A stretch of 45,178 nucleotides of DNA, taken from positions 367,073-412,250 of the forward strand of contig NZ_AOJL01000060.1 of the NCBI RefSeq assembly GCF_000337035.1. The letters are read 5' to 3'. The translations under genes and the position numbers were made by a program. The stretch comes from Halorubrum coriense DSM 10284. Its GTDB lineage: Archaea > Halobacteriota > Halobacteria > Halobacteriales > Haloferacaceae. The notes beneath the pieces are model-generated. The model worked only from the letters and a program-made list of their open reading frames with translations. It was not told where the DNA came from and searched no databases. Each line of letters opens with the position of its first letter. Position 1 is the first letter of the stretch. Positions 1 through 28,735 of the stretch are shown here, piece by piece.

Positions 1-120
1 GACTGAAGCGCGTGGTTCGAGAGAGCTCCGCTCTCTCGTCATCACGAGACGCCGAAGGCGTCTCGAACGACAGCGAGCGTGCGCCCGCCTCCCGGCTGGG
101 GCTTTGGAGGTAGTCTCCGT
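1..120. repeat. Palindromic intergenic repeat, copy A (left end possibly cut by the window)
   Basis: Two adjacent hairpins are visible. The first has 9-bp arms at 18-26 and 30-38 around a TCC loop. The second has 9-bp arms at 45-53 and 57-65 around a GAA loop. Between them lies TCATCA. After the second hairpin comes GAACGACAGCGAG and a GC-rich tail ending near 120. The same layout, with different arm sequences, occurs at 28606-28720. Similarity to that copy is already present at base 1, so this copy probably extends to the left of the window. No protein with haloarchaeal composition is encoded here. Bases 120-245 show no further recognisable feature. Confidence 0.8.
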
Positions 121-28353: not shown

Positions 28354-28361
28354 GTTTTTAA
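28354..28361 (+). promoter_or_regulatory. TATA-like box facing the structured repeat
   Basis: GTTTTTAA lies about 23-30 bases before 28384, where the structured repeat begins and where an ATG occurs. The open frame after that ATG is arginine-rich and unlike haloarchaeal proteins. If the box is active, the product would more likely be an RNA than a protein. Confidence 0.4.
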
Positions 28362-28383: not shown

Positions 28384-28735
28384 ATGTCAGCGGTCGGCGC
28401 GCGCCTGCGAGCGGCCGCCCCTGGCGGCCGCGAGTCAGCGCCGTGCGAGGGAGTCAGTCGCCCGAAGCAGCGCGAAGGGCGACTGACGAGGCTGGGGAGG
28501 CGCGAGGTGCTGTGCGGTGCTGGGCGGGGCGGGACTCGAAGGGGCGGCCGCGAGGCGGGCGGAGACGACGCAAGCACCGCAGGGAGCGAGCAATGCGAGC
28601 GACCGAGGAGCGTGGTTCGAGACGCCTCCGGCGTCGCGTCATCACGAAAGGCGCGAAGCGCCTTTCGAACGACAGCGAGTGTCCGCCCGCCTCGCGGCCG
28701 GGGCTTCGGAGGTGTTCGCCGCCGACCCGTAGACA
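28384..28735. repeat. Palindromic intergenic repeat, copy B (full length, about 350 bp)
   Basis: A non-coding stretch between hel308 and a methyltransferase gene, packed with stems. Arms are at 28411-28419/28423-28431 (9 bp, loop CCT), 28453-28463/28477-28487 (11 bp), 28513-28521/28573-28581 (9 bp), 28621-28626/28630-28635 (6 bp, loop TCC) and 28645-28654/28658-28667 (10 bp, loop GAA). The last two hairpins and the tail to about 28720 correspond to copy A at 1-120, with the same loops and flanks but other arms. Bases 28736-28807 are A/T-rich with no gene. Confidence 0.82.

Follow-up and report, generated by a model that had tools for sequence, protein, structure and literature searches.

A unit of two hairpins, 61-70 bases long and of the form GTGGTT-[CGA hairpin 1 TCG]-TCATCA-[CGA hairpin 2 TCG]-AACGACA, recurs in Halorubrum and more widely in the class Halobacteria. 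From one copy to another entire stems are different, and stems are exchanged at a fixed locus, yet pairing within them is retained. This unit (the module below) has boundaries of its own: in Halorubrum it lies at a precise site within a larger structured repeat (the host element), and elsewhere it is found in other contexts. We give a little better than an even chance to its being an archaeal paired palindrome resembling the REP/BIME elements, in which pairing is maintained and stems are exchanged as cassettes.

The module in the window and across the class

Two copies lie in the window, meaning here the whole stretch of Halorubrum coriense DSM 10284 DNA that was analyzed (45,178 nucleotides), both on the + strand. 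Copy 1 (12..72; boundaries from class-wide conservation and from empty sites as well as from its sequence) consists of GTGGTT (12-17), hairpin 1 CGA-GAGAGC-TCC-GCTCTC-TCG (18-38), the linker TCATCA (39-44), hairpin 2 CGA-GACGCC-GAA-GGCGTC-TCG (45-65), and AACGACA (66-72). Copy 2 (28612..28674, located by sequence) has the same order: GTGGTT (28612-28617), hairpin 1 CGA-GACGCC-TCC-GGCGTC-GCG (28618-28638), TCATCA (28639-28644), hairpin 2 CGA-AAGGCGC-GAA-GCGCCTT-TCG (28645-28667), and AACGACA (28668-28674). A first-pass annotation of this DNA had described both copies, and its two hairpins, linker and right flank are all present as it gave them. It had also reported that the arms differ between the copies yet remain self-complementary, which holds (the one broken pair, A28620 with G28636, is in a foot of copy 2), and that the GACGCC arm pair serves in hairpin 2 of copy 1 and in hairpin 1 of copy 2, which is correct.

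The window begins at an assembly feature: its base 1 is the first base after a single-N scaffold join (N at G000:C60:367072), with an identical 83 bases on either side of that N (G000:C60:366989-367155). A second single-N join in the same assembly (C15:24364-24530) again has 83 bases duplicated across the N. Because the 83 bases are written twice across the N, here as at C15, what looks like a tandem copy upstream is most likely an overlap left at the repeat by the assembly; a true tandem duplication at the window start was rejected, the same 83 bases having been placed at two points of the assembly. Contigs of this draft end inside the repeat, and copy counts for G000 are therefore too low.

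A pattern that fixed only the joints was searched for in 52 Halorubrum genomes, of which 31 together yielded about 120 copies; class-wide, the module was found in 121 genomes out of 341, and in 42 genera out of 81. The reversed pattern, used as a control, had no matches in either the Halorubrum or the class-wide genomes. This is far beyond chance. Neither the copies of one species nor those of different species are independent of each other, and the conservation of the joints is partly a matter of ascertainment, because the pattern fixed them. Carriers besides Halorubrum include Haloterrigena, Natrinema, Natronolimnohabitans, Halobiforma, Halomicroarcula and Halobellus, among others. Plasmid records of ten genera match, and outside Halorubrum and Halobaculum most matching genera align only over query positions 227-297, which are the module; in the annotated plasmid records examined, the unit is intergenic in four of four. 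A further search, for modules with an inverted linker, was uninformative because, the linker excepted, its pattern reads the same on both strands, and most of its matches were known modules on the opposite strand.

Filled and empty sites can be compared in genome G021. The empty site is GAGGAGC-GCA-GCGAGC (31 copies, plus variants), and the filled site has GAGGAGC, then the insert running from GTGGTTCGA to CGAACGACA, then GCGAGC; no clear target duplication was seen in this comparison. In other genera the ends of the module are identical and its surroundings different, and at three Haloarcula-type loci it lies within P3-like domains (P3 being a stem of the host element described below).

Several single cases may be recorded here. 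In Natrialbales (L318, L325, L326) the module lies in a different repeated hairpin cluster, bounded by ATCAACSTTTTGC and GCAAAAGGTTGAT. On plasmids of Halolamina, Haladaptatus and Natrinema (L343, L344, L345) it adjoins what appear by eye to be remnants of a TnpB C-terminus or right end. At L132 another two-hairpin module is nested in the TCATCA-linker region, with CATC duplicated on both sides. Related two-hairpin units with the arms GAGACGGC and AAACTCC occur at G003:C2:53723-53934 and in G005:C14, G007:C2 and C4, and G036:C22; they have TTCGA/TCGAA feet as in the module and lack its usual right flank, and two of them lie about 150 bases apart.

Arms, loops and same-arm units

In Halorubrum, the arms of hairpin 1 are nearly always GAGAGC, GACGCC or AACGGC, and those of hairpin 2 AAGGCGC, GACGCC or GACGGC. 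They are free of mismatches in 229 of 246 hairpins. Neither of the outcomes that the first-pass annotation had named as fatal to a structural reading is therefore what was found, namely that the arms of other copies do not pair, or that the two window copies are the only ones. It had also proposed a covariation analysis, and paired columns of the module do covary: among 23 ungapped sequences, nine pairs have two-sided changes, and the covariation score is 0.253, against 0.092 +/- 0.011 after shuffling (none of 500 shuffles as high) and far lower values in every slid register.

The loops are another matter. The first-pass annotation had called the loops TCC and GAA conserved, which is true of the two window copies only: among 103 copies unique within their genomes, six triplets (GAA, GGA, AAA, TTC, TCC, and TTT) make up 87% of loops. 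These are GAA, GGA and AAA with their reverse complements, and both orientations are found on the same arms, in a ratio of 21:20 for AAGGCGC and of 14:13 for GACGCC in hairpin 1. The ratio of G-U to A-C pairs in the module, 5:7, gives no strand signature. Two alternatives had been offered for the exchange of arms, that the structure is selected or that recombination swaps arms while keeping loops; the maintained pairing and the replacement of arms as wholes stand, and the keeping of the loops does not.

Identical arms can be used in either hairpin position throughout the class. GAGAGC alone is found at position 1 in 27, and at position 2 in 29, of 86 class-wide copies. Units with the same arm in both positions are nevertheless absent, from all 123 Halorubrum copies (13.2 expected) and from all 86 class-wide copies (10.7 expected). 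With identical arms set aside, there is no avoidance of partial similarity or of partial cross-pairing between the two hairpins.

The host element in Halorubrum

Both window copies of the module sit in a larger multi-stem intergenic element of about 240-330 bases, with the order P1 (containing a hairpin, P1a), P2, an invariant core AGGCTGGGGAGG, P3 enclosing the module, and then GGGGCTTTGGAGG. Around copy 1 only a remnant is in the window (+ strand), comprising the 3′ arm of P3 (80-97) and the conserved 3′ motif GGGGCTTTGG (98-107); the 5′ part lies to the left, beyond the scaffold N. The element around copy 2 extends over 28392..28712, also on the + strand, where the P1a hairpin within P1 is GCGGCCGCC-CCT-GGCGGCCGC (28411..28431), P2 is formed by GTCAGTCGCCC and GGGCGACTGAC (28453..28487), the core AGGCTGGGGAGG is at 28489..28500, and P3 (28546..28699) pairs GGCCGCGAGGCGGGCGGA (28546-28563) with TCCGCCCGCCTCGCGGCC (28682-28699) around the module, followed by the conserved 3′ motif GGGGCTTCGGAGG (28700..28712). 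A TATA-like sequence on the same strand, TTTTTAA (28355..28361), lies at a greater distance upstream than it does in the majority of copies.

Exact copies of the core number 9-171 per genome in all 30 Halorubrum genomes sampled; beyond this genus, some occur in a small number of genera belonging to the family, and most genera have none. In G021, 148 host elements were found in the 2.4 Mb examined. Their P2 stems comprise dozens of sequences, with 1260 of 1272 pairs Watson-Crick, and 98 of 122 elements have a TATA-like box no more than 60 bases upstream of where they start, mostly at -17 to -14 (such a box is found in 1.4% of random 60-mers). Host elements are intergenic and have all orientations relative to genes. 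Paired columns covary in both P2 and P3; the automatic fold of the 5′ domain alignment (A1) understates P2, because two P2 types are off register in it by one base. The orientation of the P3 interior is preserved in 248 of 250 scorable copies, and at L074 and L172 the entire interior runs in the opposite direction to the remainder of the element.

Other repeats accompany the host element, among them further two-hairpin modules that have joints of their own and sit elsewhere in it. Tandem tail repeats of 57 bases, TTTATAAGCGAGCGGCTGGGGCTTTGGAGGTGTTCGCCGTCGATC, lie downstream of most G021 elements and occur also at L032, L042, and L043; each has a TATA-like box (102 tail-like copies have one) and contains GGAGGTG, resembling a Shine-Dalgarno sequence. 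A second two-hairpin module, TCGCCGGC..GCCGGCTGCCAGAGG..CCTCGCTG, is found in the host element at L040, L041, L066, L067 and, reversed, at L060 and L078, occupying several host positions in both orientations.

From species to species the host element is found at syntenic positions, but with different stems. In the clearest example, the loci L065 and L336, both flanks are about 95% identical, and P2 and the core are identical; hairpin 1 of the module is of GAGATC type in one and AACGGC in the other, and P1a and the inner P3 stem differ as well.

Like the structured RNAs collected in Rfam, the host element combines a conserved core with covarying stems, but neither it nor the module has an Rfam match, and a known RNA family was rejected on this ground. 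An origin in a virus or phage was also rejected: viral contigs contain neither core nor module, and phage records have no match to the host element. The halovirus HF2 has two classes of intergenic repeats (I and II), 58-bp and 29-bp, with AT-rich promoter motifs (PMC8707807); these too are haloarchaeal intergenic repeats with such motifs, but they belong to a virus. Searches of openly accessible papers by name, sequence and property turned up no account of either the module or the host element. The latter is apparently a very numerous, undescribed structured element of Halorubrum.

The host element might be a structured noncoding RNA and the module no more than a two-hairpin arm that is optional in it, with stems that evolve by compensatory mutation under RNA selection. 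A TATA-like box at 80% of host copies would suit this, although the usual archaeal TATA spacing would put the start inside P1. The unpaired invariant core, the very variable yet paired P2 stems and the retained orientation of the P3 interior are also as expected. Counted over P2 together with the outer stem of P3, G-U pairs exceed A-C pairs in the host by 22:6. This excess points the same way, but it is weak, being 21:25 in another P3 registration (16 pairs) and drawn from copies that are not independent. For the module, the lack of a comparable excess or strand signature, the discrete arms with few intermediates, and its presence outside the host make such an origin rather unlikely. Judged from these ratios, selection at the RNA level is plausible in the host element, while for the module they speak neither for it nor against it.

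Known repeat systems and the source of new stems

The closest likeness to a known system is to REP palindromes. In tagged REP families (GTAG and CGTC) and their dimers, many show a preference for heterodimers, for which no obvious explanation was given (PMC3733652). The module too consists of short intergenic palindromes, paired in a fixed arrangement and present in many copies. As for the terminal unpaired tag of REPs (GTAG or CGTC), inspection by eye shows GTGG before hairpin 1 and CGTC across the end of that hairpin, an uncertain correspondence. In REP dimers, however, the stems are conserved, whereas in the module they vary and only the CGA/TCG feet and the joints are fixed. The module is further distinguished by its occurrence in the class Halobacteria and by its nesting, in Halorubrum, in a larger structured repeat. 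In addition, none of 209 copies pairs two identical hairpins, and no transposase association could be found. A text search of the same paper (PMC3733652) found no haloarchaeal REP family. Because it has neither conserved stems nor a transposase association, the module is not filed as a member of REP/BIME.

In the favored reading, as a REP/BIME-like palindrome with exchangeable stems, pairing would be kept because folding, of a host transcript or of DNA in single-stranded form, has a function or shields the unit. Other copies, of the same or another lineage, would supply new stems as complete palindromic cassettes; alternatively, one arm could be copied from the other inside a hairpin, a process that would flip the loops too. 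Either route would be favored over stepwise compensatory mutation. Same-arm units would be lost, and the simplest ways for this to happen are that the direct repeats recombine and delete what lies between them, or that a single long hairpin forms.

Arm sharing tells against the cassette proposal. For hairpin 1 there is no excess of sharing within genomes over that between them (P = 0.47), and for hairpin 2 the excess is weak (P = 0.03), so that a donor copy for the stems is not demonstrated. Since sharing is not clearly higher within than between genomes, homogenizing conversion inside one genome is unsupported, and concerted evolution of the arms within genomes, absent for hairpin 1 and weak for hairpin 2, was rejected. 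The candidate routes are then exchange between lineages and copying inside the hairpin, rather than within-genome homogenization.

It is also conceivable that pairing is under no selection, and that template switching during replication of the palindromes matches the arms and flips the loops. Loops in both orientations, near-perfect arms without strand bias, and inverted P3 interiors at two loci are all consistent with this, but the small inventory of arms common to many genera, the swapped positions, the absence of same-arm dimers and the class-wide fixed joints would be left unexplained, and such a process appears quite unlikely to be the whole cause.

REPINs, the partners of RAYTs, are like the module in being two-hairpin replicating units without a gene of their own (PMC3116915, PMC2817692), but the module shows no link to the presence of Y1_Tnp. 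The least likely reading is that the module is a REPIN-like unit, mobilized as single-stranded hairpins by a transposase of the Y1 class (IS200/IS605, RAYT-type): the dimer of palindromes, the filled and empty sites without clear target duplication, the many contexts and genera and the three plasmid copies beside putative TnpB remnants (judged by eye) would fit, but Y1_Tnp is absent from module-rich G028 and G066 and present in module-free G009, G024, and G039, the stems are not conserved although such transposases recognize specific hairpins, and Y1-driven mobility was rejected because the transposase genes do not track the module across genomes.

The module offers hundreds of natural copies with fixed joints, a small stem inventory and identical hairpins excluded. 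They bring two questions within reach of a test: how the two arms of a palindromic repeat come to change in step, and why identical partners are avoided in REP dimers. The analysis also exposes a high-copy structured element of Halorubrum without an Rfam family. More tentatively, and with well under an even chance of being right, a haloarchaeal process, dedicated or at least frequent, may replace whole stems in place with ready-made palindromes across the class. If so, it would act on many intergenic elements, on the stems of the module and of the host element alike, so that structure would persist while stem sequence is reshuffled.
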